Positions 1 to 62,200 of a stretch of 64,000 bases of DNA are shown piece by piece. The DNA lies in the NCBI GenBank assembly GCA_015039365.1, contig WION01000013.1, positions 434,001 through 498,000 of the forward strand, in the 5' to 3' direction. A program made the position numbers and the translations under genes. The DNA comes from Amanita rubescens (Eukaryota; Basidiomycota; Agaricomycetes; Agaricales; Amanitaceae). The notes under the pieces are model-generated. The model made no database searches and was not told the origin of the DNA. It was given only the letters and a program-made list of their open reading frames with translations. The stretch's first letter is position 1. The number at the start of each line of letters is the position of its first letter.

Positions 1-89
1 TCGCCAAAGCCCCAGGAAAACTGCGAGGGAATAAATCTCCAACTTGGGGCTTCGCGACCAATGCTAGCTCCTTTTCCCAATATGACCTG

Positions 90-2555
90 TCATACCGCCT
101 CAGCATGTACCCTAGTCAGATCATCAAAAAAAAATAGGGAACTCACAGGCTTTCCCGAGTTCTTGTCCGAGCTAGATTTCACTGTGACCAAGGGGGCTCC
201 GTTTGTGCCTGTATTCATGTTGGGAGGCAAATCAACCCATTCTATGCTGAAAATTTTCGTGTAAGTACTGTTCGAGGGAAGAAACATAATGCAGGCTCAC
301 CAATAGACTCCAAACTCGCTCGTGGTGACCAAACGCCATCCACGCATTTCATAATTTAGGATGACAGGCACATCGGAAGGCTGGGTTCTGGTGATATGTG
401 TTTCGTTTTCAGTGTTCCAGTACACTTTTGGTTTTGGCGTCTTCTGGAAATACTGGATAGTGTACACCTGTTCTTGGGCGTCAATACATTTTACGAACCA
501 CTGAGGAAAAAATGTCAGTGTATGTAAATCGGTATAGTGGAATCTAGCTTTACCGTAGTGGGTGTCTTAACTTTCGGATTCAAAGCAATGACTGGTTTGT
601 AAGCTTCAATAGCATCGGCAAAAAGAGTCGGATCCGGAACGAATTGAATTTTGTAGAAACCATCGTCCAAGGGACCCGGACTGGGAGTATACTGACAAAT
701 GATAGGAACAACCCCTGTATACGGTTATGAGAGATAGTGGCCTCGCTGCAGTCACGGTAATGCCATACCTCCGGTATGCAGAGGATAGGCACCAGGACTT
801 CCACCAAGGGCAGAGATAATTGCACCGACGATCTCGTGATGTGCCGTGATTGAAATAACTAAAATAGGCCTTCATTTCCCGTCCAAATCTAAAGGTTTAA
901 GAACACTCACATATCTTCTCCTTCGCCTCAGATTTGAAAATCTTATCAAGCACCGCCTGTACTCGGCGCTCAACAGATTTATTAGATTCACTCTCCTTTC
1001 CGGTCCAGTAAGGGTCCTCTTCAACGAAATTTGGTTCGATTGCAAATTTTGGGTAAACGAGTTCAATATATGTTTTGGATCTGCGTTTCTCTCCTTCGTC
1101 CTTGTAAACAATCTCACGGCAATCCTATGCAAAATTGTTGAACATAGAAATTACGGAAACGAATCACAACATCCAATGGACACACCTCTACAACAACGGT
1201 ATTGATTTTAGGCCCCCCTTTTGCTGCCAACAAGGGCGTGAATGTGATGCTATTGGTAGCCAAGCATCTAGTCAATGGGCTACAGTACGAGATTGTTGGT
1301 ATCCCGATTCCTCCGTCGTCAAGCGAGCTTTCGTGCTTCCACATATTTTGCACCCTTGAGACCTGGAAGAATCCGTTTTGAATAAGCTGGGCATCTGTTA
1401 TTAAAGATTGTTTTAACGGGTCCGTCTGATAATGCTGTGAGACATACCCCATTCAAGGTCGCCATCATCTTTCAGCTGGATGTGCCTAATCAGATTATCG
1501 TTGAGATGACAGATGCAAAATAACACTTACCGACTGTTTGCTCGCCCTCTTAAGGTTATCTGCAGAATGGCATTCTAAATATCAACTATAAGATATAATA
1601 GAATAATCACTTACGGAAGCCGGTCCCATGACGGGCAAAGAATATTACTTTGTAAATCACTGAGCCATTAGCCTTAGCGTTGAGTCTCCGGATGGCATTC
1701 CAGAACTTTGGCCATCGGTCAGAAGAGTCGTCTTTGAGGCCAAATCGTGGCAAAAGCTATGCAAAGACGAGAATGTCAGCTTTTTCCCCACAAGGCCGAT
1801 GCTTAGTTATGCTCCCACCCCGTGATCTGCACTGTATCCGAAGTAATCCGAGTTTTCGGGATAGATCTAACCATTCGCCAATCTCAGGACCGCCGAGTAA
1901 TTAGACTATAAAGGTTACTCACGCTGTAAGGAGTTGGCGTCGGGAGATCACCATCCAGTTCCTGGAAGACCCACGAGGAAGGGGTAGTGGTCTTCTCTGC
2001 TGTGACCTCATTAGGAACTGTGGTGTTTGAATTTGAAGAGAGTGCGCCTCCATTATATTGAAATAAGCGGTTATCGGCGGTATATATTCTACATATCAAG
2101 CATGAATAATTCTGTTTGAGAAATGGTTGCAATAGCTCACTCGAAATAAACCTCTTCACTTCTAACTTGCGATGTTGTTTGAAGTCGGATTTGGAAGTAT
2201 TGTGGCTCATCTGCGATGAGTACATCGGTCTATCAAAGTTGATGTTACACCTGTCCATCCAATAGCAGTGTTTACGCTCACATCTTGAGTTACGATATAC
2301 AACGGCTGGTTGTGGATCTGAATGGTGTAACCGCCTTCGTTATGTTGCACATCCCACTGCATTGTCCTTCGTGAGTGAATGATAACAAAAATAAAAAGAA
2401 TGAAGGACCTGGAATGGCGGGGCATCCTCTGTAACGACAAAGGTACGGTCGATGTTACGGGGTCTTTTCGGCGCAATGACAACTTCATGGTTGCTGCTCC
2501 ATATTGCATAGGTGCCGCTAGGAAGCGCTGTGGCTTGGGTGGAGCTGTAGCTCAT
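90..2555 (-). CDS. Beta-trefoil / histidine phosphatase / beta-trefoil fusion protein (multi-exon)
   Basis: Spliced by eye as one chain of about 600 residues. The N-terminal part (2555 to about 1915) starts MSYSSTQATALPSGTYAIW and reads like the fungal beta-trefoil protease-inhibitor/lectin fold. Next comes a histidine phosphatase related to yeast Pmu1: FGLKDDSSDRWPKFW, then the RHG motif in FFARHGTGF, SPLTRC, and a second histidine in ISITAHHEIVG where the usual H-G is H-H, ending PLHTGGVVP. The same frame runs on through PLDDGFYKIQF and WFVKC into a second trefoil-like domain, stopping at 90-92. The linker exon (IYPENSDYFGYSADHG, about 1866-1819) joins trefoil to phosphatase in phase 0 across introns of 56 and about 60 nt; the exit from the phosphatase (TGG|VVP) is also in phase. 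No signal peptide is evident. If the linker splice is wrong this is two adjacent genes (trefoil 1884-2555 and phosphatase-trefoil). Family calls are fairly secure; the fusion is inferred. Confidence 0.58.
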
Positions 2556-2559
2556 TGGT

Positions 2560-3247
2560 GACTGGTACGAATGGCGGGAAGTGCACGGATGGATAGCCCA
2601 TAACTTAATCTTGAGCTTGTAGCGGATGACCTATGTTTCTGTTTGGTCGACTTTTTCCTGTTGGGTCTACCCGTCTACCCGCATCTACAAAGGGAAGAGT
2701 GATGAGACCATGACTGCCCTGCTTCTTCAGGCTTCCAAACCACACCTTCCCCCTTGCGTCTCCCAGCAATCGGTCCTGCTGTTACGAAACCTAAGCACAA
2801 CTATTGAATCTTGATTTCAATGATTAGAATGGTTAACCGTCCTTCTAATTCCACGTACCAACACTTCCACCGGGGCCTGTCGGAGATTAATAACCAAAGT
2901 TGGAACTGGATAGGCGCCCCGCCTATTGAGCAGGATACTAATGGGTATCCTCGTCATAATAGGACGGATTCTGAGGAACGTGGGACCTAGAGTGAAAAAT
3001 GCTTGCACCCCAGATCCGTGGAGATTGACTGGAGGATTGGAAGATGTTGCATTGAATAATGCTACAGAAAGCAGTTTTCACGGAATTCGTTCATCTGAGT
3101 CTTAATTTAGCGCTGTTTCTATAATCGCGCTGGTCAACACAAGGTCGTGGCTATCTTGGATTCCGTATCTTGGTGCCAGTACTAGAAAGTTTCTTCTCAA
3201 AAGGCAAGAGAAGTGGGTTCTTTGAATGTTTTCGTTCAACGGCGATT
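2560..3247. other. Spacer without a confident gene
   Basis: Only short open frames. One on the minus strand (2817-3008 and open further upstream) contains FTLGPTFLRIRPIM but has no recognised family and no convincing splice partners. I see no repeats. Confidence 0.4.
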
Positions 3248-4033: not shown

Positions 4034-4078
4034 CTGCAGTTGAGCAACTTCGTCTCCAACTGAAACCATCTGTCCAAC

Positions 4079-6620
4079 ATGGATCCATCTGCAGCCGCTT
4101 CCACTCCTCGATACTTGGTAAAATTGAAGAGAGGGGTCATCATGAAAGACCTTATTAGAGACTTCTCCAACAATCACCCAGACGGCCACGTCGTGACTCG
4201 TACCTGGAATCCCAATTTCCTGAACGCTTATGCCGGTTTGTGTCATATTCCCCCGTCGATACGATAAATCTCTTGCTAACTTACATGTCATCCATGTAGG
4301 TAACTTCAGTGCTGCGGTCGTGGATGCACTCAGGCAGCACTCCAGCGTTGAATATGTTGTCGAAGATACCGAGGATACAGCATACATGATCGATACTCAG
4401 TACTTATTCTCTAGAGTCTTCGTTAAGGGGACCATCTGAGTCTCTTGTACTACAGGAATACTGCTCCTTGGGGACTTGCTCGCATCAATCAACCCGGGCC
4501 TTTGTCCAATAAGGATGTCTCCAAAACTACCTACAACTATACATACGACATGAACTGTGAAAATGGTCGTGGTGTTGATGTATATATTCTCGGTGGGTCA
4601 CACTAGTGTTGAATCGGTGTATAGTGCACTCAACCAGATCGTTCCCACCAGATACTGGTAAGGGTTACCACATTTCGCGCTCGTGGCCTCAGCTCATACT
4701 TACTTTGATTCGCCTGAAGGAATCTTCACTGCACATGTAAGAATAGTATTCCTTTTAATAAGAGATGGCGTTGTGATTGACCTATTTTTCAGTCCGACTT
4801 CGGCGGGCGGGCGCGTTGGGGTATTACATTTAGTGAGCCTTGACGTCAATGTTCATCTTTAACTCCGTTTTTTTAACCTTCGCCCTTTCAAGTCGGAACC
4901 GATGTGTGTTTGGCATCTTCTAGTGTTCAGGAGGGCTCGTTCACCTTTTATTAGGGACAAGACGTGCATGGGCATGGAACTCATGTTGCGTGAGTCAGAA
5001 TCAATGGACATGTGTTTAAATATTACTAACGATTGGCAGTGGGACTGCTGGTGGAGCTCGGTGGGGTGTTGCCAAGGCAAGGCGGTACTTTTGGTTTCAC
5101 CCTTTGCCAGCTTACACTTAATAGGATGCCAACTTGATCGCTGTTAAAGTTCTGGGCGATGATGGGTCCGTGAATTGTTTCTTCAACCGTCAGTGATACT
5201 GATTGAAGTTTAGTCATGGCTGGAAAAGGGATAGGTGAGCGGTAATAATACGGGGTCGACTAATTAACTTGAACCTCGGTCAGCATCGACGGATTGCAAT
5301 GGGTTCTAGACCAAGCTCTGGCATCTGGTCGCCCTTCTGTTGTGAACATGAGCTCGGGGGGTAAAAAAAACCAGCTTCAAAATGATGCTGTTGACGCGGT
5401 GAGTTTGTCGCCTCCGCTCTTGTATGTTTCAGGTACTTACCATAAGCTTCCGGATTTTGCCTTAGGTCGCAGAGGCGGGAATACATGTCATCGTATAGCC
5501 CAACAATTTTTCACGTCTGCCACACCTCACTATGTCACAGGTAGCTGCAGGAAACGAGGGAAAGGACGCAAAAGATTATAGTCCCGCCAGTGCCCCTAAA
5601 GCCAACACCGTTGGAGCGTGCGACATTGATGATAGGATGTGCAAGTTTTCTAACTTCGGTACGTCTCCATGCGGAAATCCACAGCTTGGGCCTGGCAAAC
5701 GGGATCGGTTTCACGCAGGTGCTGATGTTAATTTCTTTGCTCCCGGACGTCACGTTATCAGTTGTGCAACTGGAGATGGGAATCTTAATTGGGGTCTAAA
5801 TGTTTGTGCTTCCCTCGCTTATAATCCCGATAGTTGAGATACATGAACCAGGCATATACTGACAAATCTGGCACCTCGATGGTAGGGCAAAACTGAGTCA
5901 TGACATTCTGTGAGGCTGATATTCTCATCGTAGTCCACGCCTCACGTTACGGGGATCATCGCTACCGTCCTTTCGATGAATGGAAAAATGTCTGCGGAAG
6001 CCATGACCGCAACAATCACGGCTCTCAGCATCAAGAACAAATTGCACGGTATTCGTGAGTTATTCTCTGTAGATTGTTTTAGATATCCTGACTTGTGCAT
6101 CTCAGCCCAGGGGACAGCAAACGCGTTTGCTCGTGGATGTGTTCATACTCCTGCACGTTTTCGTTTGGAATCCAATTGGGCAAAGGTCGCCACTATGTCA
6201 CCCTACCGCGCAACCTTCTGCGAAATCAATAACGCAGGGGTTGGTGCGTACAATAACACTTCTTCAACCATTCAGATGCTTCAGTGTGGCCAGGAACACT
6301 TGCGTACATACTTCAACCGTGCAATCGAGTGAGTACGTTTTATCCAGGATCTGCTTTCAGGTGCTAAAGCGCATATAAGCTTTATGATAGTCAGCGCCGA
6401 TTTAAGCATCGATATTAGCATACGTCATGGCACAGACAAGGCCAACTGGGGCGACAAAACTGGACGTGCCATCGCCGATTTTGCTGGGGCAAGCTCCACA
6501 ACTTTTTCCCCTCCAAGTGTAAACTCATGTGAACTCGCTTTACAGCACACCTATGAGAATATCCAAACCACTGACAATGATCACAACGAGGAAGTGTACA
6601 CAAATTGTCCTACTGAGTAA
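4079..6620 (+). CDS. Subtilisin-like serine protease, peptidase S8 (proteinase K group)
   Basis: Multi-exon endopeptidase gene. The N-terminal part is an I9-type propeptide (YLVKLKRGV, then [18 protein letters not shown] and [15 protein letters not shown]). The mature domain begins [10 protein letters not shown]. All three catalytic motifs are present: Asp in VYIL-DTG (joined across an intron), His in [20 protein letters not shown], Ser in [16 protein letters not shown], plus the oxyanion region VAAGNEG. The ATG at 4079 has no obvious signal peptide, which is unusual for this mostly secreted family, so an upstream exon may be missing. After the normal end (GTANAFA) the frame continues for roughly 140 residues, across an in-phase intron at about 6330-6393, to a stop at 6618-6620; that tail ([17 protein letters not shown]) matches nothing I know. 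The splice between the Asp and His exons (about 4840-4960) is not fully resolved. Confidence 0.72.
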
Positions 6621-6711: not shown

Positions 6712-6836
6712 GACCCTGTATACGGTCAGTAAGAGAGTGGTCTCGCTGCAGTCACGGTAATGCCATACCTCCAGTATGCAGAGGATAGGCACCAGGACTT
6801 CCACCAAGGGCAGAGATAATTGCACCGACGAATCTG
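6712..6836 (-). pseudogene. Stray duplicate of one histidine-phosphatase exon and intron
   Basis: About 120 bp almost identical to 714-835. It carries the exon VGAIISALGGSPGAYPLHTGG and the following short intron up to its CAG acceptor. Similarity ends abruptly on both sides, and what follows the acceptor no longer encodes the trefoil domain. It is a fragment left by a local duplication downstream of the protease gene. Confidence 0.75.
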
Positions 6837-6937
6837 GACTGTGCATCTCGGGACCACTTCTGCTCAAGTTCCATTTGCTCTCACCGCTCCCACCGCTCAG
6901 GCAAAAAAGCTTCAGTATGTAGACAAACTGCCAGAAG

Positions 6938-49463: not shown

Positions 49464-52400
49464 ATGTTGCCATCATCGTCGACAACTGCTTGCAAGCGCC
49501 CTCTAGATATTGGTGGGGTTGATGAGAGAGAGAGGAAGAAAGTCAAGAACAAGAGTGATGTCAGCTCAGGTGATATAATGGCACAGCTGCCCCACGAATC
49601 TAGAAGCGGCCACGGTTCTTTGCCTTCAGGGCTTCAGCGAACCCAAATGCCTGATAATCAGATGTCTGTCTCAGCACCCATACAATTCATAAACTGCGAG
49701 TTTAATGACGTCGCAGGAGACTACACTCAGTACACAAACCACCAACCTCCTGACGGTAAGTAGAGAGTTTTTCATGCTCCGGCTTCTTACACGTCTCGAT
49801 GCCGAACAGTCCTAAAGGATCTTTGCGACAACGAGGATCTCGCAGAGTTTGGAAGAGTGAAGGATAACACAATCGCGTATCCGGAGGCTGGACAGTGGAT
49901 TCTCCAACGCCAAGAGTATAAAATATGGAAGCAGGGTTCATCAGCATCGCGATTGCTTTGGTTAAAGGGAACACGTGGGTGTCAAGTCCTTGTATATTCC
50001 ATAATTGCTTAATCGCCAATGAACAGTCGGTGCAGGAAAAACGGTCCTCAGGTACGGCGTAACTACTTGTCTCATCATTGTCATACGATCCATTCTTCAT
50101 ACAGCTCCGTTGTAATCGAGAATGTTAAGGGAGTACCGGGGTGTCGATATATCTATGGTTTCTGTGACCAGTTACACGGCAAAAAACGCGCTCCGATAAA
50201 TCTCCTTCGCAGTCCGCTCGGCCAGCTCTTGAAAAGGATTTCTGGAGACCCAGAGGCCGTAAGCAAACTGAACAGTCAGTGTGAGATGAAGTCCCTCTTC
50301 CGGCTCGGTGACCTTACGAGCTTTATCATGGAGCTATCACGGACGGCTGAGAAGACTTTTGTGGTAATCGATGGGTTAGATAAATGCGATTCCCTCGACA
50401 AATTGCTGCCCTGTCTCGTGGAACTGGCAAAGGAGCTACACGTCTTCGTCAGCAGTCGGGATCATCCTGACATTCGACATCATTTCAAAGATCAGGTCCA
50501 TTACATGATCAGCGCAGATGATATCAGGCACGATGTGCAGTTAAAGATAGAGGTCAAAAAGATCAACAGAATCAGACCAGATGTTGTCGATTTTATTGTC
50601 GACAGCTTGACATCGGGGGCTAAGGGAACGTAAGTAAGACTGCGGCTGTAATACCGCCTACTACAGCTTACATCTTGCAGTTTTTTTTGGCCGCTTTATC
50701 ATATTGAAGAACTCAAAAAGAATTCACTTACAGCCGCTGAGATTGAAAGGTCACCGGAAGGGTTGCCACAGAGTTTCGAAAATATGATTAAAAGGGAATT
50801 TAAAGCGATTCATGATCGTTTTCATCTCGTTCTCAAACTCGTCCTATGCGCGAAGAGGCCTCTTACCCTTCCCGAGTTGGCTGAAGGTGTTGCAACCAAT
50901 GAGATGGAAGGCGTATGGAACGCGTCAAACGTAGTCGAAAATCCCATGCTGCTCGTTGACCGCTGCGCAAATCTCCTTATTTGTTTTCCTCACCCAGAGC
51001 AAGATATGTTGCAAATTGTTGCTCCATTCCACGAGTCTGTCAAAAGATCCCTGCTGGCGGGCCGTAATGAACCTAAGGGAAGCAAAACGTTTTATATGCC
51101 TGACGTGCATATCCAGCTCGCCAGGCTATGCCTGACTTATTTAAAGCTCAAAGCCATGAGAGAATTTCCATCTCTCTTATCTGACATTTCGAACCACCCG
51201 TTCGCAGAGTACGCTATTACGGGATGGCTTGATCATATTCGCGCATCTCGCACGGCTGAAATGGCAAAGGAATTTCAGGAATTCCTAGCTCCAGGATCGG
51301 CTACGTTCGAAATATGGAGACACCTATTCGTTGGGTGGTCAGGAACGTATGCAGCCTCAAAAGTTTTAGACCACGTGGAATACCTTGATCCGGCCCATCT
51401 CGCCGTCTGGTTCAATCTTCCAAAGATCATACCGCAGTTTAGCAGTGATCAACTGTGCACAGAAGACTATAGAGGACTAAGCACTCTCCACGTTGCGATG
51501 GAGATATCGAGTTCCATTGACGTTCAAGTTATCACCAGCCTACTCCCAGAGGTTGATGTCGGCCAAGTCACTAAAGATGGTAATACCGCCCTACATATCG
51601 CCATCTCTCACTTACAGTCGAATGGACAGGTAGTTGTCGACAAGCTCTGTGAAGCAGGAGCAAACGTGGACAAACCAGATAAAGAGGGACGAACACCTCT
51701 CCATCTAGCCATGTTGAATCCCGGTGCCGCGATGTCCTGCATCATCCCCCTGTTGAAGCAAAAGGCGGATTCCAATGCTCGAGATTTTTCTGGAAAAACG
51801 CCTCTTCATATCGCTGCCGTTGCACCCAGATATGTAACGAGCAGGCAATCCGGCAAACATCAGGCACAAACTGTGGCCGAATATCAAGAAGGGATGAAAG
51901 CCTTGTTAGCGTATAGCGCCGACGTACAATCAATAGATAGAAATCGTAATACTCCGCTTCATCTCGCTGCAAGCGTTATCAATCCGTTTGGGGTACAACT
52001 TCTGCTTATGTATGGAGCAATCGTGAACACTTTTAATCGTGCTGGGTTCACACCACTCCACCTCGCGATCAACTACAACTCGCTAAACACACGCTGGAGC
52101 ATATTTGAGACCCCAGTTTTAAGAGATCAAACCTTGACCGTAGAATACCTCCTTCGTCACACCGCTGATGTCAATAAACCCACCAAATCCAGCGTCGACT
52201 TCAAAGGGTCTCCATTACATCTAGCAGCACTGTCGTGTTGCAACGAGGCCATCTTCTCGGTTTTAATCAAGTATGGCGCTTTTGTTAATTCAACAGATGT
52301 AGAAGGTGCCACTCCGTTGCATCGTGCCGCTGCAATGGCGCCAATCAAGAACCCCAACGATCCCTGCAAGCAGTGGAGCGTATCGTGGATGGCTCTCAGA

Positions 52401-52781
52401 CAAATAATTTACAAACTACTCGCTACTACAGCGGGCCAATGCGACGTGTACCGATCGCAACAAATTGCAGAGGCTGTCCTCGGTCTTATAAAACCTAAAT
52501 ATCCCAATACCGCGCCGATGCTTCAAGAGATTGATAGTTTAGAGCCAGAACATCCATTCGCGACGTGGTTCGAGCACGTGAACGAGCAACTTTGCTCTGC
52601 AGGTGCGAAGAGGGTACCAGCTCGGACCTGGATGAAAAGCCCAGACGTTTTGAACTTTACCATGAATTTTTGGTCCTCGTGGATCCACAGTAATATCGGA
52701 TCAATATCATCGAAACGAGCCACACTATATACCTTATACAGCGAATGGACAAGAATTTCAATGTTACTTCAGAAGCCATAG
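49464..52781 (+). CDS. NACHT-ankyrin STAND protein (NLR-like)
   Basis: Five exons. The N-terminus MLPSSSTTACKRPLDIGGVD leads to INCEFNDVAGDYTQYTN, the segment that commonly precedes NACHT domains in basidiomycetes. Exon joins give Walker A as LKGT-LGAGKTVL. Walker B is VVIDGLDKCD, where the usual DALDEC is altered (E to K). ELAKELHVFVSSRDHPDI follows. After WPLYHIEELKKNSLTAAEIE comes a winged-helix-like part, then about eight ankyrin repeats: DGNTALHIAI, EGRTPLHLAM, SGKTPLHIAA, RNTPLHLAAS, AGFTPLHLAI, KGSPLHLAAL, EGATPLHRAA. It stops at 52779-52781. Fungal NLR-like proteins of this type are thought to sense non-self or other organisms through the repeat domain. The frame is intact throughout. 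Confidence 0.8.
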
Positions 52782-52985
52782 TTATTTCTTTACTTTTCCT
52801 TTTTATGTCACTTATATCGTACATCTCCTGTCTCGCGAACGACCTTTGTGTATTGTACAAGTTGAAGAAACATTTTATACATGGGAAGCTCCGATCTCTG
52901 TCATGATTAGCTGCCTTGGTAGTTTCGGAGAGAGTGAATGTAAAGACCTTACTGGATCAAATTGAAATTGCGCGTTTCCATACGA

Positions 52986-55245
52986 CTAGGAGAGTAACTT
53001 GGCAATCTCTGACCACGCCACATATGCCGCCGCCAATGACGTGTCATCTGTATCTCGACTTTCTGCAAGCATCCAATGATATTTGGAAATCCAAGATGCC
53101 CAAGATTCCATCGCGAAGCGTAAGGTACTATGAATCTTGCTTGTTTCCGCTGGATTATTGCTACCACCTTGGGACCATAACAGATTTGAAACATCTTTTA
53201 CCCATGTCGTGTGCGGATGGTCAAGCCGCTCAGGCTCTACTAATTCATAGTCCATCCCGGGGAAATCTTCGAATTGTCTGACCGTGTTAGGGTAACGGCT
53301 CCGCAAGATCTCGCAGACTTCTTCAGCAACTTCACGCAACATCCGCGAGTCTTCGCCGTTCTTGATTAAGAACTGGATTATCTGTCTGAATGCGACCCAC
53401 GAGATACGCCATCGACCTTCAACATCATTTGGGTTCAAAACGGGGCCCATTTTTACAGCCAGATGTAAAGGAGTAGCATTGTCGTTATCGGTTGTGTCCA
53501 CTGCTGCGCCTTGTTGCACAAGGGCATTGAAAATGATTGGCTCACAGCGAAAGGACGCCGCAATGTGTAATGGGGTTCGGTTACTTTGGTTTGTGGCGTT
53601 GATGTCAGAACCGTGATCAAGCAAGCATTTGATAGTGAATGCCTGATCATGACTTTCTTGAAGAGGGAATCGGATTAACGACGAATCTGGAATTACATGT
53701 CCAATCGCTAAGTGTATTGGTGTGTCATAGTGATCGTTGCGGGCAATAATTGATGCTCCTCTTTGCAGCAACAAATTCACTGCGAACGCATTCGCATTTT
53801 TAGCAGCGATGTGCAGGGGCGTTTCGTTTTCATCGTCTCGGGATTCGACATCTGCTCCACGTTCCAGTAAGATGCATAATATCTGCCTGTGCTCTTCTGC
53901 ACTTGATCCTTGACATTCGGGGCCTGTGAATCGCCTCTTAAAGATATACGCAGGAGCAGTGGAAGCCAGGTGTAAGGGTGTGCGTGAAAAAGCATCTCGG
54001 GCGTTGATATCAACCTCGCCGCTCTGCAGCAGCGCAGATATTGATGACAAAGCATGCTCGGACTCGGTCAGCATCAGTATTAGATGCAAAGGCGTCCGGC
54101 CTGACGCGTCCTCGGCATTTACATTTGCACCCGCTTTTACAAGTCGTTGAATGATTATCGGTGCCTTCGCAGATTTAGAGATGGCAAGATGGAGAGCCGT
54201 ATCACCCCACCTACTGAGACTATTAACATCAATTTTGTACAGTAGACAATCCATCACGGCGGGGCAGCTCGGTATTCTGACCGCGACGTGTAGGGTGTTA
54301 AGGCCTCTATAATCTTCCGCCATCAGCTCAGACTTGCTGAACTGGTGCAACATCATAGGAAGATTAAACCAAACAGCAAGATGGACGCAGTCAAGGTGTT
54401 CCAGGTGTTCTCCGACACCAGACGTTCCAAATTTTCCCAGTTGTTTCTTATACAAATAGCACCATCCCTTGAGTGTGGCTGAGCCTGAAGCAAAAAAGTG
54501 ACGAAAATCTGTTGCCAATGTGTCCATTCCGGAGGCCCGGATATGGTCTAGGCATCCAGTAACAGCATATGTTGTGAAGGCATGATCAGAAGCGTAAGAA
54601 AGGACTTCTGATGGGTAATCTGCAAGTTTACGTCTGAGATACATTAAGCAGAGCCTGGCAAAGGCAGCATTCACAACCTGTTTAGTATTGGATGGATGGT
54701 GATCACCAGGGTCGGGGAAAGACCTGTGAACAGGCATGAGAAAATCAGGTTGCTTTTGGTTATCTCTTGGAATGCAAACAACTTGAAAATGTGGACCGGT
54801 ATCAGTGAACTTGCCTATACCTGTACTGCCAAAATCCAGTTGCCAATTTTGCATTTCAGCCATTGCTGCAACATCTTCCAGTTCCGGAATTGTCATGGGT
54901 CTCACAGCCCATTGGACTATGGGAAGGATATGTTTGATTTTTTCCCATGAATAGTCTGCATACATTGACTGCTCAGCTCGCAGTTGATCCATATTTGGTG
55001 GTACAAAGTTGATAAAGTTTCTAATGTGTTCCTCTGCCGGTAGCTTTCGCAGCTGGCTCAGTGGCCAGTGGAAGCTATTATCATGATTCATGAAATGAAC
55101 ATCCTGCTACCCTACTTCGGGATTGAACATGAATTGCCACTCACCGCCGCTGGGAACCTGAAGTTAATGTATCCACCATTTCCCTTGCTAACTTAGGGTT
55201 CCGAACCTTGATTTCTTTAATGTTCATGTGAATGAATTGGCATGC
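52986..55245 (-). pseudogene. NACHT-ankyrin paralogue lacking its NACHT domain
   Basis: Convergent with 49464-52781, with only 204 bp between stop codons. An upstream piece (DACQFIHMNIKEIKVRNPKL, AREMVDTLTSGSQRR, 55245-55140) joins through an intron to FHWPLSQLRKLPAEEHIRNF, parallel to the neighbour's DSLTSGAKGT-FFWPLYHIEELKK. The winged-helix-like region and eight ankyrin repeats (WGDTALHLAI, SGRTPLHLIL, FSRTPLHLAS, ENETPLHIAA, HYDTPIHLAI, SNRTPLHIAA, DNATPLHLAV) form one 701-codon open frame. Upstream of 55245 the P-loop part is not found, and sequence to 55440 is out of frame. It may be a truncated gene still able to make an ankyrin protein from the ATG at 55091, or a pseudogene. Confidence 0.65.
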
Positions 55246-55449
55246 GTCGGCGCCAATATTCGCAGACTCAACTGAGAAGTTCCGTTATGTATGGCGGTAG
55301 CGCACTCTGTGATGCGGTTATCGCCCCCTGTGTTGTGAGACTATCGGGTGTTTTCGGCATTACTCTCGAATTTAGCGCGAAATATTTCTGCATTGCTTCA
55401 GGTGACTCTGCTCACGCCATCGTCTGAGAAAATAATTGTAACTTCCTTC

Positions 55450-56629
55450 CTACGGAGACATACCGGGTAATGTATCTTGCCATGGGTGTGTTTGTGACCT
55501 TCGCGCTATAAAGTCCGGTATCTCGTGGGAAACTGGAATGGGTTGGAGTAATTCCGGAGCCACATTTACTACAGTTGATGCTGGAAAAAGGATCATAATG
55601 GGTTGTTTATTAAACGGCTTCGAAGACGTACCGTTGTCGGTGGGGCTATCGAGAGGCAGCGGTAGAGATTCGAAAACTTGAAATGGCCGTTTTCTGATGT
55701 GGATATCCTTCCGAATACGAATTTTGATGCCTTGGTCGGCGAGTGAACACGACAGTGGAGTTGATTCTACACAATCCAGTAAATAACTGGGAGCCCAAAG
55801 AGACGATGTTGCATGCCTTCCATGCCCGGGAATTGTTTGGCAGTATATACATAGAAAGGCGCAGAATAAATCGACTTGCGGTGTCTTACATTACTTCTGT
55901 GACGATTGTCAAGTCAAAAGGCGCATGTATGCGAGTGACACTCACCCAACTACTTCGAATAAACTGAGTTTGAGCCGATAGCTTCCTTCAATCCGTACAC
56001 TGAGGTTAGGGAATACAAAAAAACCAGCATCTATTGGGGTATCATATTAGCATGCACGTAGATTCAATCCCCAACTGTTTGTATTAACCTTCGTTATCAT
56101 TTTGCAAATCCCTTAAATGATACATGGATGATACACCGGAACCTGTTGTACAACGTGTTCGCCCGTCCTGGTGCAGTCAGCGAGGAGCAGACAATGTTCA
56201 GAGCCGGGACTTACTTTAAGCCAATGCAGTTCCGCATCGTCATCTGCCTTGGCGAGACTTGCAAACATGAAATAATAAGGATTTTGTAAATAACATTGAG
56301 TATATGACACGGCATCTCGTGAGCTGGAAGGATCGAGGTGCGGGGGAGAATCAGGATCCGAACCAGAAGCACTGAATGTACGTCTGCGAGGAGTAGATGG
56401 CTTGGACGGGTCGATCACGCGTAGCTGGACGATCGGGGGCGGATCGATAGGACGACGGTCGACTTATGTACAAGTATTTTTAAGACAAGTTACGGTGACG
56501 ATCGAGCATCGTTCCCGTACCTTTACCACCTACGCCGCACATTCTTGCCTGCTTAGGCTCTTGTCGGACCACGAGTTCATACTCTCTTAAGGCGGTGATA
56601 GACCGATCATGCAAATTAGGGCAAAGCAT
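55450..56629 (-). CDS. VosA-like velvet-family transcription regulator
   Basis: Velvet domain spread over seven or so exons: YELVVRQEPKQARMCGVGGK, VDRRPIDPPPIVQLRVIDPS, CYLQNPYYFMFASLAKADDD, AELHWLK-DGRTRCTTG-SGVSSMYHLRDLQ, AGFFVFPNLSVRIEGSYRLK, LSLFEVVG, HRKSIYSAPFYVYTAKQFPG, STPLSCSLADQGIKIRIRKD. Stop at 55450-55452 after DTLPGMSP. Velvet proteins bind DNA as dimers and control development, spore formation and secondary metabolism. All domain blocks are present in order. One intron (55767-55816) uses a GC donor. The start is uncertain: an in-frame ATG lies at 56629, but a separate first exon within 56774-57060 is possible. Confidence 0.85.
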
Positions 56630-56639
56630 AGCATGCAAT

Positions 56640-57600
56640 GCCACGACGAAGAGTAGATGGAGACGATATGTGGAGAGAATAAAGAATTAGCGGACGGAAG
56701 GGAGAGTTGTGGTATACGAGCCATGACCAAGGACTCGGAACGTGCAGAAGAACCGGGGGGAATGTACTCACAGAGTGTCTCTATCATGGGGGTGATGGTG
56801 CGCCATTGCGGTTGCGCCTGCCAAAACAGAGGCAGACGACTCTCCAGGCCCGGCCTTGCTGGGTGGTATGAAGGTTCAATACTGGCAGGCTTTAGGGACT
56901 TCACTCGGGAGGATGGTGAGAACCGGGGCCCACTGCTGAGCGCAGGGAAGCCAGTTTCGCGAAGCCAGTTTCCTGGCTGTAGGTTCACCGCCAATCTCTC
57001 GTTCCCTTTCCCATTCTGAGGTACCACGTCGCTGACAAAGCGTGATGACCAGGTGTTCATCCCGCCATCTGATCGTGATCATCGCGAGTCTTGCTGTCCA
57101 TTCGCAGGCGACACCGTAGACTACGCGGGACGGGCACCCTATATACATTCACGACGGATACACTCCAATCGTGGTTGAATAGAGATATGGATCTATCGTG
57201 GAAGAGGTGAAGCAAGGGGAGCAGTTGATGGCGACGATATATGAATTTCGCCCAAACAATGCTCCTATCATGCTCTCCAAGACGAGTCTTCGTCAAGTGA
57301 GGTCCGTGCATCGGGAAAAACGGAGATGGATAATTGAGGACAAAAAAATTTAGTCTCTTAATATTGTACAATCTGGTACAATCTGTAATACTAAGCTTAA
57401 TCCGTTCCAATTGATACAAATTCATCGAAAAGGCAATAAGTTCGTAAGTCTGAAAAGCTATTTACCAGAAAGAAGAAAACTTGTCAAGAATACGGTGCTT
57501 TTCCAATCGTGTGGAATTGCGGCTAACAAAATTCCTCAATCAGAACCAGGCGGGTGTTGGGCACTGATATAGTGAGGGGGGGACCGTGAGTTGCAGGCGA
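56640..57600. other. Upstream region of the velvet gene
   Basis: A minus-strand open frame at 56587-57060 (MNTWSSRFVSDVVPQNGKGN) ends near a GTGAGT donor at about 56774 and could be the velvet first exon. The rest (57060-57600) has no recognised gene. Confidence 0.35.
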
Positions 57601-57639
57601 CACCACGACTGTGAACAAGCTAACGAAGTGCTAAATGAT

Positions 57640-58210
57640 GGATCCAGGTGCATGCTGCGACATGCATGGGCCACGTGGTAGATTCAGCCATATTTTGCCT
57701 CGCACTCTGCTCACCGGGGCTGGTGGGTGTTGGACGTTGGACACTGATCCTGGAGAGCTAGCTGGGGATGCTCGAATTTTAAGTAGAGGGCTAATGAGAT
57801 CCGAGCGAAGTCCAACCTCACACGCACGGGCCACGCGGTTCCGGAACATATATCAGATCCGGCCATATTCTAAGTTCTCGCCTCGTCACTCCCATTACTC
57901 CCTTTCGCTCGATCCCTCTCTCCTCTGCAAGACTGCACCGTCATCGCGCTCAGCGTGCAATGCGCACAGGCAGCCATCGCTAACCCTCAGCCGGAGCAAC
58001 ATCCAGCGCTACCTGAGCGAAGCTCAACCCCACAAGCACGGGCCACACAGTTCCGGTCCTCTGTCCAACTTCTTCACACGCACAGGCCACGTGGTTGAAC
58101 AACCAAGTCAGGATCCGGCCGTTCCTCACCTTGCGCTCTTCCTCACTCCACCACTATCACACCACACGCACACAACACACGCACACAACACACGCACACA
58201 ACACATAGCC
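57640..58210. repeat. Imperfect ~200-bp spaced repeats and a CA-rich microsatellite
   Basis: The phrase CGGGCCAC-GGTTCCGG recurs near 57830 and 58037, with related forms at 57667 and 58085, each followed by similar TC-rich sequence. A CACACAACACACG-type tandem array lies at about 58150-58205. A plus-strand frame spans it (57635-58282), but its composition is that of repeated DNA, not a protein. Confidence 0.55.
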
Positions 58211-58975
58211 TATCAAGCAGGTAGCCATCCCGACATGGACACTCTACTAGTAACCCATGTAAGTCTGCCTGTACGTGTGTAATCCACTAGCTAAATCACC
58301 CTCAGTCCCACTGCCCAGCATCTTCGTGACCACCAAGGTGAGTATCGCCAGTTGCTTCGATGACGCGGTTCGAGTTTACGAGTGCCTATATTAGTTATGC
58401 GCTACCACGGCTACCTTTGATCCTTGACATATGATAGCGCTGTTAGTAATAGTTTTGGCTATAACATAGTGTACACCTATGTAGCAATGAAATATATTAA
58501 GTTTTTAGGTCATGACCATAAGTGTGAACTGCAACTAATAACTACTAAACTTGTTGCAATATTGTCTAATTAGAGCTTGGATTTTAGGAGAACTAAGAGT
58601 CTAAGTATCATCCAGCTAATATTGCTAAGTCCTCAATTTGGTTGAAATTGTCTTATTTCTGGCTATTTTCTGGCGAATTATGCACGATTAACCATCTCGG
58701 TTTTTCCCGATGGTTCTGGCATGTTGGACCACATGGCTGCTAATATCCAGGCTTGTCAATTCTGGCACATCACTACTCCTGCTCCTTGCAGTGTCCCTCA
58801 TTGAAGTCATGTTTAAATTCGAAGCCAACAGTATCTTGAAGGTCCTGGCGGCTGACAAGGGCATTTTTGCTGCAGAAGACGAGGCGCTCAACTCTCGCAG
58901 GAAGCAGGAACGGCAGAAGATGTCGCGCGGCATCCAGCGCTCAGTACATTTCTGAATGCATGCAACTTCTGATGA
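58211..58975. other. Spacer, nothing recognised
   Basis: Short overlapping frames on both strands at 58688-59005 have no recognisable family. Confidence 0.4.
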
Positions 58976-59070
58976 CCTAGTTTTACTCAATCGACTTAGT
59001 TCCACTTAGCCGACTTAGTTGACTTAGTTTTTACTTAGTTGACTTAGATGTACACATAGCGAACTTAGCC
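58976..59070. repeat. ACTTAG/GACTTAGTT-rich short array
   Basis: GACTTAGTT-like words repeat about eight times in 95 bp. The same word bias marks the element at 12147-13177, so this may be a fragment of that family. Confidence 0.5.
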
Positions 59071-59286
59071 ATGATTGAAAAAGGTCGGACGACGGACTAG
59101 CTGGGGAATTGGGAAAACAACTGAGCAATGGCCCGGGGGCAATTGCCAATGCGTCGAGTATGTATCCTTCGTCCTTCGACATCAACGATGTGACACCGGG
59201 TGTCAGGAAACTGGAAAGAGGACAAACAATACGCGTCTCCTCAACCACCGCGTCACGCCATCCAATAAGCGTATCCCGATCAATAG

Positions 59287-62200
59287 ATGAAGCATGTCAA
59301 GAAGGTACTTTTGAAACCCTTCAAAAATCGGGGAACTCCTTCCGAGAGCAGTACAGAGTTTGACAGGGACTCCAAAGGTGAGTATTCCTCGAGAGATCTC
59401 AGAGCAGATAAGCCCGATGGGGCTGACTTGACCATCCCACCAGATACCAATCACGGAGAGGGTTCTCAGATCGCAAATGAGGACAGGACCATCGGGGATC
59501 AACAACTTCCTACGCTGGATATCTCAACTCTTACTGCCAGGCATGATGGCGGCAACGCAACTTGTGAGTGTGGTCGGCTGTAGCTACTAGTAGTTATGGG
59601 ACAGACATTTATTTCCCATCCCAATAGCACTGCAAGGACGGGGACGTACACAGATGGGTTCCGTGGAAGCGTGGAACGGTCGTAACACTCCTGATGCCAA
59701 ATCCGCTGAGAGGGGTCCCGAACATGCATCCGGCGCTGGTCAGGACGGCGGGGATACTCATGATGTCGAACAAGTCCAATCCCGGAAGTCCAGGGGTAAG
59801 TCTTGGTGTTCTGGTCACACTACAGTCCGTGTTGACCACTACTAGTAAAAGCAAGAGGCCGGATTGGCCAGGTTGTCGACCGTTTGGTAGTTGCGATCGA
59901 TCTAGCGAAGGTGCCAGCCCAAGGCTTTGCTCCCCTCAAAGCCGTCTTGGAATCCATCTCCGTTTTCTATGCCAAATATCAGGTTTGTTCTGATGTTCTG
60001 CTCAGGGTTCTCCTCTGACGATTACATATCCAGGATGCTGTTGCCGTCGGGGATAGGATCGAAATACTGTGCTCACGCATCACCACTCTGGTGAACCTTT
60101 TCGAGAATCCCGCAGGTGATGAGGAGGAAAAAGAACGTCGTATAAATTTATTAATGTATGCAAGTGGTCTTCGTTTAGACCGGATGCTTAAACCCTCCTA
60201 CTAGTAAACTCAAAGAGATCGAAGAAGAATCAGGGTCATTGCACGAGAAGTCTGTGCCTCTGCGATATCTTGATAGCACTCAAGACAGCAAAGTTGTCAG
60301 CGGACTTGTCAACGACCTGCAAGAGGCTGTCAACGACTATATGGTTCGTTCGTGGCTGTAACACTCTTCTCAACGTTTACTAGGACAACAGATGGCGCAA
60401 CAAATGTCAATCTACAATCAAGCATGTCAGCTTATAGTGAGTACTTCCTCTTTCATGTCTGAACGAATGGAATAATATTTTTTGTAAGGATGCAGGTCAG
60501 ACTGTTCGTTGCTCCGGACGACAGGTGTCTGACATGAAGCCTTGACAGCCCAATTGGCTGTCCTCAATGGTTTCCGCAGTGCACGTGCGGCCGAGTTTCG
60601 ACATGGCGAACGGAAAGGTTGCCTCAAACACACACGCGAAGCCGTTCTGACCACTGTTGAACTCTGGGCAAGGGACTTTGACCAGTCCTCCATTTATTGG
60701 TTGAACGGGCTAGCCGGAACGGGGAAGAGCACCATCGCGAAGACGATTGCGGACAGATTGTTTGCAGATGATCAGCTTGGGGCCTCCTTCTTCTGTTCGA
60801 GGGATTTCGAGGATCGGAGAAATCTTCACTTCATATTCCCAACACTTGCCACTCAACTCGCGCGCAAGTTTCCCGAATTCCGAAAGATCCTCGTCCAGTT
60901 GATACAATCGGATCCAAACATTGCGTACGAATCACTGAAGAGCCAGATGGAAAAGTTGATCGTCCGGCCCCTCAGCAAAACCAGCATTTCGACTGTGATC
61001 GTCATCGACGCTTTAGATGAATGTAAAGATGAGTTGTCATCTTCGGCGATCCTGTTCGTCCTTGGAGAGTTGGCGTCCAAGATCCCGAAGATCAAATTCT
61101 TCCTTACTGGTCGCCCGGAGCCACGCATCTCTGAAGGCTTCCGCGACTTGCTGTTGAAGAAAATGGCAGACAAGTTCGTGCTTCATGGCGTCGAGCCGGA
61201 CCAAGTCAATAGCGACATACGGCTGTTCTTTACAACCGGCCTCGGGGAAATTGCGCGTCGTCGGGGATTGGATGACTGGCCGACCAAATCGGACCTGGAC
61301 CGACTTTGCAATCTGGCAGCAGGACTGTTCGTCTATGCCGCGGCAACGGTCAAGTTCGTCGATAACAACAAGTGGGATCCCAGGAAGCGGCTGAATAACC
61401 TTCTGTGGTCACAGAAGATCGGTGGTAATGAGGGGAAAACCCTGGACTCACTGTACACAACAATTCTTCAGGAGGCTTTCGGTGACGGCGACACAGATGA
61501 GGACACTAAGATTCGCTCCGTCCTCGGTGCTGTTGTCATCGCCACGAATCCCCTGTCCCCATCCGCTATCGCCAGACTCTTGGGACTCGATGCCTATGAT
61601 GTCCCCCGCTTATTGTCGTCGGTCAATTCGCTCCTTATCCTCCACGAGGACCCCAATCATCCTGTTCGTGCCTTCCACAAGTCGTTCCCTGACTTCATCA
61701 CGGATCCAAACCGATGCATCGACAAGAGGTTTCACATCTCCCCTCGAGATCACCACTCGCAACTTCACATTCGCTGCCTTGGTCTAATGGATGGATCGCT
61801 GCAGAAGAACATCTGCAATCTCCAGGGTCCTGTCGCAAACTCAGATGTCGTCGACTTGAGGAAGAGGATCGATGACTTCATTAATCCAACTTTGCAATAC
61901 GCATGTATGTCGTGGCACGTACACCTCGTTGAAGCCCACACGACACCAGTTGATGAACCCCAAATCAACCGTACCTTGAAGAAGTTCATGGAGAAGAAAT
62001 TTTTGTTCTGGTTGGAAGTACTTAGCGTCCTCGGCGCCGTCAGGAATGCGGCTGAAGCAATGCGAGCCACCGTGGCCTGGTTGAAGGTATGTCGTGTCCC
62101 TGCGCTCGATGTCTTTCCCAAATTTACTCAGACCGGATCCAGGAGTCACCAACGCTTGAGCTCGCTGAGGACTGTTTTCATTTTGTAACCACAAACTTCG

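Follow-up and report, generated by a model that had tools for sequence, protein, structure and literature searches.

A gene on the minus strand of the Amanita rubescens genome, located in the first 2.6 kb of the window (the whole stretch of 64,000 nucleotides that was analysed, i.e. bases 434001-498000 of contig C35 in an assembly of 75.7 Mb and 786 contigs), contains 15 exons and encodes a 599-residue protein in which a Pmu1-type histidine phosphatase, as predicted from its sequence, is flanked by two domains that appear to be beta-trefoils. The trefoil fold is strongly supported for the N-terminal domain and probable for the C-terminal one. The reading frame and the joined architecture are real.

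Gene structure and joining of the three domains

The coordinates of the gene and its domains are summarized in Table 1. All of the 14 introns have GT-AG boundaries and lengths of 52-62 bp, and their phases are consistent throughout; the length of the gene before splicing is 2571 bases. Together with the intact second allele, this confirms the continuous frame from trefoil through phosphatase to trefoil that had been read on this strand in the original prediction. Two details of that prediction were revised. The gene does not end at position 90 but has a further last exon of about 100 bases, the final 16 of which lie outside the window, with the stop codon at C35:433985-433987. The segment 1866-1819, previously described as a linker exon, is better regarded as the start of the phosphatase, as a loose alignment places it on the N-terminal part of Pmu1-like phosphatases from fungi. 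Another placement of introns 2, 4 and 5 was overruled by the sequences of the relatives, which gave the right sites.

Table 1. Features of the trefoil-phosphatase-trefoil gene (window positions)
Feature	Position	Strand	Remarks
Whole gene	1..2555, then 16 bases past window base 1	minus	spliced model, adjoining sequence and intact second allele
Exons 1-4	2555-2409, 2356-2282, 2229-2141, 2088-1923	minus	
Exons 5-8	1866-1819, 1756-1615, 1559-1531, 1475-1448	minus	
Exons 9-12	1394-1186, 1124-911, 858-769, 714-554	minus	
Exons 13-15	500-301, 246-147, 86 to 16 bases beyond window base 1	minus	
Putative N-terminal trefoil (residues 1-156) and first phosphatase residues (PYS), exons 1-4	1923..2555	minus	
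Intron 4, between trefoil and phosphatase	1867..1922 (56 bp)	minus	GTGAGT...GGTTAG; removal yields residues found in relatives
Exon 5, IYPENSDYFGYSADHG, phosphatase start	1819..1866	minus	matches IYPKNSDYFEYSADHG of P0001 and P0004; loose alignment with Pmu1-like N-termini
Intron 5	1757..1818 (62 bp)	minus	GTGGGA...GCATAG; phase 0
Predicted histidine phosphatase domain, about residues 157-422, exons 4-12	686..1931	minus	Pfam PF00300
Catalytic residues R217, H218, R284, E315, H389	1633-1631, 1630-1628, 1269-1267, 1115-1113, 841-839	minus	
Intron 11, just ahead of phosphatase end	715..768 (54 bp)	minus	GTATGG...ATACAG; missing from P0015
Exon 12, phosphatase end (GVVPIICQYTP) and C-terminal trefoil start (DDGFYKIQF)	554..714	minus	one open frame
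Probable C-terminal trefoil (residues 429-599), exons 12-15	1..669	minus	threefold repeat; profile register match to N-domain

The second fusion needs no splicing, because exon 12 runs on from the last phosphatase residues into the C-terminal trefoil. The first junction spans introns 4 and 5 and is settled by the relatives, which show the residues that splicing gives here (exon 5 reads IYPENSDYFGYSADHG in the window protein vs IYPKNSDYFEYSADHG in P0001 and P0004 (Amanita muscaria)). The two junctions on which the original prediction depended were thereby verified in part: the intron between 768 and 714 is removed in P0015, which is almost identical and comes from this species or one very close to it, and the relatives run in one frame across both junctions.

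An unspliced reading past position 1923 meets a TGA at 1886-1884, followed by an ATG at 1874, and might be taken as the border of two adjoining genes, i.e. an N-terminal trefoil gene and a phosphatase-trefoil gene, joined in the present model by chance or by polycistronic readthrough. According to one study (PMC4503453), polycistronic transcripts involve as many as 8% of the genes transcribed in certain Agaricomycetes, and the database entries P0018 and P0019 are such unspliced readings, though other introns are unspliced in them as well. This two-gene alternative is nevertheless extremely improbable. The relatives have one unbroken frame over the site with the same residues as the spliced product, a phosphatase starting from the ATG at 1874 would be without the conserved PYSIYxxNSDYF segment, the intergenic gap would be just 9 bases, and the C-terminal fusion lies within one exon.

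Relatives with the same domain order

Homologues were searched for among 5.8 billion proteins with limited sensitivity. The first search and alignment used a gene model with introns 2, 4 and 5 misplaced; a second search, started from an alignment with the corrected model, returned the same seven relatives and an additional seven ascomycete proteins. The three-domain order, which the original prediction had proposed to seek in other basidiomycete proteins, is present in full in five of them (P0001, P0002, P0005, P0006 and P0007), with 93-98% of the query covered. Identities among the full-order comparisons range from 42 to 81%; the window protein shares 42% identity with P0006 of Gymnopilus dilepis and 81% with P0004, an annotated protein of Amanita muscaria, the latter value pointing to Amanita or a near relative as the source of the window's genome. 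Both species belong to the Agaricales, in different suborders. The remaining two relatives are partial: P0004 consists of a trefoil and the phosphatase, and P0003 of part of the phosphatase and a trefoil. P0004 ends a few residues into sequence that is intron 11 here, so that its second trefoil was apparently lost from the record by a stop inside this intron, and public annotation can hide such proteins. The records of P0001 and P0007 open with a methionine that corresponds to about residue 28, so that the first strand is absent from them.

For P0002, P0005 and P0007, the longest contig of each measures 2014, 2004 and 1962 bases for 613, 582 and 596 residues, respectively. As these contigs are shorter than the unspliced gene, they are most simply explained as transcripts. 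The sources labelled 'lgn' and 'jgi' are probably transcript assemblies, judging from the contig sizes and the missing introns.

The seven ascomycete proteins contain the phosphatase (31-34% identity over 34-51% of the query) and show no trefoil match. A third search, using a joined profile with parts of both trefoils at E <= 10, gave six matches, i.e. P0003, P0015-P0017 (pieces of phosphatase-trefoil proteins) and P0018-P0019 (the N-domain region read without splicing). No stand-alone trefoil relative was found in this search, the compromise profile of which may miss some. With seven relatives in the full-length searches and five partial or unspliced pieces, the fused family looks rare within the limited sensitivity of the searches.

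The histidine phosphatase domain

The middle domain is, on the evidence of its motifs, a Pmu1-type branch-1 histidine phosphatase with a complete catalytic set. The window protein scores 27.0 bits with Pfam PF00300 (cut-off 21.7), and four of the five proteins scanned pass this cut-off, P0006 being slightly below it (21.1). This set consists of the RHG arginine and histidine, the second arginine, the acidic glutamate and the second histidine. The five positions are invariant in all six aligned members, including the window protein. In an alignment of 14 rows without the window protein, all 14 keep the second arginine, the glutamate and the second histidine. The RHG arginine and histidine are present in every row that extends so far, 12 in all, P0003 and P0014 falling short of them. 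In the phosphohistidine mechanism of the family, the histidine of RHG is the nucleophile and the glutamate of CRE serves as the acid. Activity of the fused enzymes is not certain, since the HN after RHG is changed to NN in P0002, P0005 and P0007 and the residue after the catalytic second histidine is H, rather than S or G, in seven of the eight fused sequences.

The RHG, SPLTR, RE and second-histidine motifs are common to this domain and the Pmu1-like fungal phosphatases, but the ascomycete members found have no trefoils and most fused members are altered after the second histidine. Identity to the histidine phosphatase domains of Sts-1 and Sts-2 is 12%, and the Sts proteins have UBA and SH3 domains and are not known to contain trefoils. 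Sequence searches of the PDB gave no match with the full profile and none for the phosphatase with the single sequence.

The flanking domains

The trefoil assignment draws first on internal repeats. A strict Y-x-I...W-x-F pattern occurs in both flanking domains of the window protein (residues 16-145 and 433-584) and in none of 20000 shuffles of each, and a looser pattern in 2 and 6 of 20000 shuffles; the domain cuts and the pattern were picked after the sequences had been seen, and such tests to some degree favour a trefoil reading. The six repeat profiles of the two domains together gave a summed score of 200.1, vs at most 149.6 in 40 column shuffles. Among the 15 pairs of repeats, several aligned over no more than 3 to 13 columns, and repeats 2 and 3 of the C-domain matched over 45 columns (score 26.5). 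The N- and C-domain profiles scored 30.4 against each other, vs at most 24.7 in 200 shuffles, and the hhalign probability for this match was 34%. Among the relatives, P0007 fits neither the strict nor the loose pattern, the N-domain of P0002 fits the loose pattern only, and the N-domain of P0001, the record of which lacks the first strand, fits neither. None of the seven ascomycete phosphatases matched the repeat pattern.

Structural comparisons point in the same direction for the N-domain. The predicted models were poor (mean pLDDT of 39.5 and 48.8 with 7 and 11 sequences, respectively), and neither had a Foldseek match at E <= 0.001. Among the 50 candidates listed for the first model, nearly all align residues ~10-156 to trefoil proteins or to chains with a trefoil part. 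A mushroom trefoil lectin heads these alignments, which include Clitocybe nebularis lectin, clitocypin and fascin; the fold is presumed for chains whose titles mention neither 'trefoil' nor 'ricin'. The 50 candidates listed for the second model are, by title or presumed identity, chains of the histidine phosphatase superfamily, with no match of the C-domain's own. A profile search of the PDB with the N-domain gave four matches only (E 0.23 to 9.1), all of them HA1/HA-33 haemagglutinin chains, which are trefoils, and the corresponding search with the C-domain gave no match.

It is improbable that the flanks have another beta-rich repeat fold. The low confidence of the models, the empty Foldseek result at the threshold above, the missing Pfam match and the failure of P0007 to fit either pattern would agree with this, whereas the threefold repetition within each flanking domain of the window protein, the trefoil-containing chains that make up nearly all of the 50 Foldseek candidates listed for the first model and the haemagglutinin chains as the only four PDB profile matches of the N-domain argue for trefoils.

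The original prediction had placed the presumed trefoils among lectins or protease inhibitors, which the sequence does not show. The Q-x-W motif is absent from the window protein and from six of the seven fused relatives, some of which are partial (P0007 has one QIW at 77). Pfam returned no lectin or inhibitor family in the trefoils, and isolated domain pieces gave only noise. The trefoils also had no match to the Inhibitor_I66-like exons of the genome when a single short sequence was compared. The sole place found in the genome that matches I66 trefoil protease inhibitors is C26:96602-96928 (46.7 bits).

Second allele and other genomic copies

A second copy of the gene on contig C105 is 99% identical, keeps the whole frame and looks like the other allele. 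The two copies differ by 17 substitutions and 4 gap positions in 2641 aligned bases, with all gaps in introns and four amino-acid changes. Eight substitutions are coding (four replacing and four silent) and nine are non-coding (Fisher p 0.07), which are too few to be used for constraint. Apart from this locus and its allele, the flanking domains have no match in the genome at E <= 1. The phosphatase also matches exons on C354, C274 and C578 (36-45% identity), which are paralogous exons without trefoil matches.

Within residues 369-599, P0015 (247 residues on a 1107-base contig) is identical to the second allele at all 230 positions compared; one more residue, at a junction, was filled in and is not among the 230. 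Introns 10, 11, 12 and 14 are removed in it; intron 13 is retained minus six bases, so that P0015 is not a clean mRNA. Because its intron letters are closer to the window allele than to C105, it may derive from a third haplotype. A haplotype of this type seems to keep intron 13 in frame, with the six bases missing near the donor site, and would add 16 residues to the C-domain. Window positions 6714-6844 contain a solitary DNA copy (92-94% identical) that covers the latter half of exon 11, intron 11 and the very start of exon 12. It has the same orientation as the gene, lies 6 kb away from it and is also present on the contig of the other allele.

Relation to known proteins and possible function

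No paper in an open-access library mentions both a histidine phosphatase and a beta-trefoil, and none of the titles and abstract openings listed for related topics concerns a protein that joins them, in agreement with the original prediction, which knew of none. MOA and other mushroom chimerolectins likewise combine a beta-trefoil and an enzyme domain in one protein (PMC6272156), but MOA pairs a RicinB-type domain at its N-terminus with a cysteine protease, whereas here two putative trefoils without QxW surround a histidine phosphatase. A trefoil lectin joined to a cysteine protease, as in MOA-type chimerolectins, is not found here, and the likeness is in plan only. The Clitocybe nebularis lectin is a small homodimeric lectin with QxW (PMC6930499), which the window protein lacks. 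The plan of trefoil plus enzyme is known; what appears to be new is the kind of enzyme, its position between two such domains and the sequences of the latter. The protein adds a phosphatase, in a two-sided arrangement, to the short list of enzymes joined to mushroom trefoils, and brings in two trefoil-like families that lie outside every Pfam model.

As a whole, the data are explained best, and with somewhat better than even confidence, by a cytosolic chimeric enzyme whose trefoils would bring the phosphatase to a ligand, a role that the original prediction had also considered. One intron-rich gene would yield the 599-residue trefoil-phosphatase-trefoil protein, the enzyme would act by the phosphohistidine mechanism of its family, and the two trefoils might form a bivalent binding unit that, as in mushroom chimerolectins, places it on a ligand-bearing surface or a partner protein. 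If the trefoils bind a target, dephosphorylation would become a targeted activity. The N-terminus has no hydrophobic stretch (best 12-residue mean of 0.69 within the first 41 residues) and no recognisable signal peptide, which suggests a cytosolic enzyme; it may be stored in the cytosol.

What such an enzyme would serve can be judged by analogy. MOA, the best characterised mushroom protein of trefoil plus enzyme, is toxic to Caenorhabditis elegans and needs both parts for this, and effectors against nematodes sit in the fungal cytoplasm, with fruiting-body lectins lacking a secretion signal (PMC6272156). On these precedents, defence is a fair guess, and it is plausible that a defence role is slightly more likely than internal regulation. 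It is conceivable, if less probable than not, that the protein is an endogenous regulator without any role in defence, the trefoils binding proteins and bringing the phosphatase to a partner within the fungus itself. The trefoils of fascin, which is among the structural rows, bind actin; the restriction of both flanking domains to this locus and its allele (genome search, E <= 1) and the lack of a signal peptide and of QxW would also fit such a regulator. The patchy distribution, with seven fused relatives in 5.8 billion proteins searched at limited sensitivity, is unlike that of a core regulator, and the strong divergence from the Gymnopilus protein (42% identity) likewise speaks against it.

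A more specific and rather doubtful proposal is that the protein represents an undescribed class of chimeric enzymes of the Agaricales, in which two trefoils, diverged from known lectins and inhibitors, clamp the phosphatase on a phosphorylated glycoprotein, phosphoprotein or lipid surface, whether foreign or the fungus's own, with dephosphorylation as the effector activity. To our knowledge, no mushroom chimerolectin has such effector chemistry.

Genomic neighbourhood

Upstream of the gene, window positions 2696-2807 are 74-87% like sequences at nine places on six other contigs and may be an old mobile element that lies in the promoter. The convergent neighbour past the window edge (C35:432973-433539) encodes the C-terminal domain of a glycosyl hydrolase of family 38. 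Exon-like frames on the plus strand at 4064-6332 resemble, by eye, a subtilisin-type protease, and three of them had no Pfam match at E <= 0.001. Farther away, positions 50652-62185 contain a NACHT (NPHP3_N) frame together with two large frames of ankyrin repeats, forming an NLR-like neighbourhood.
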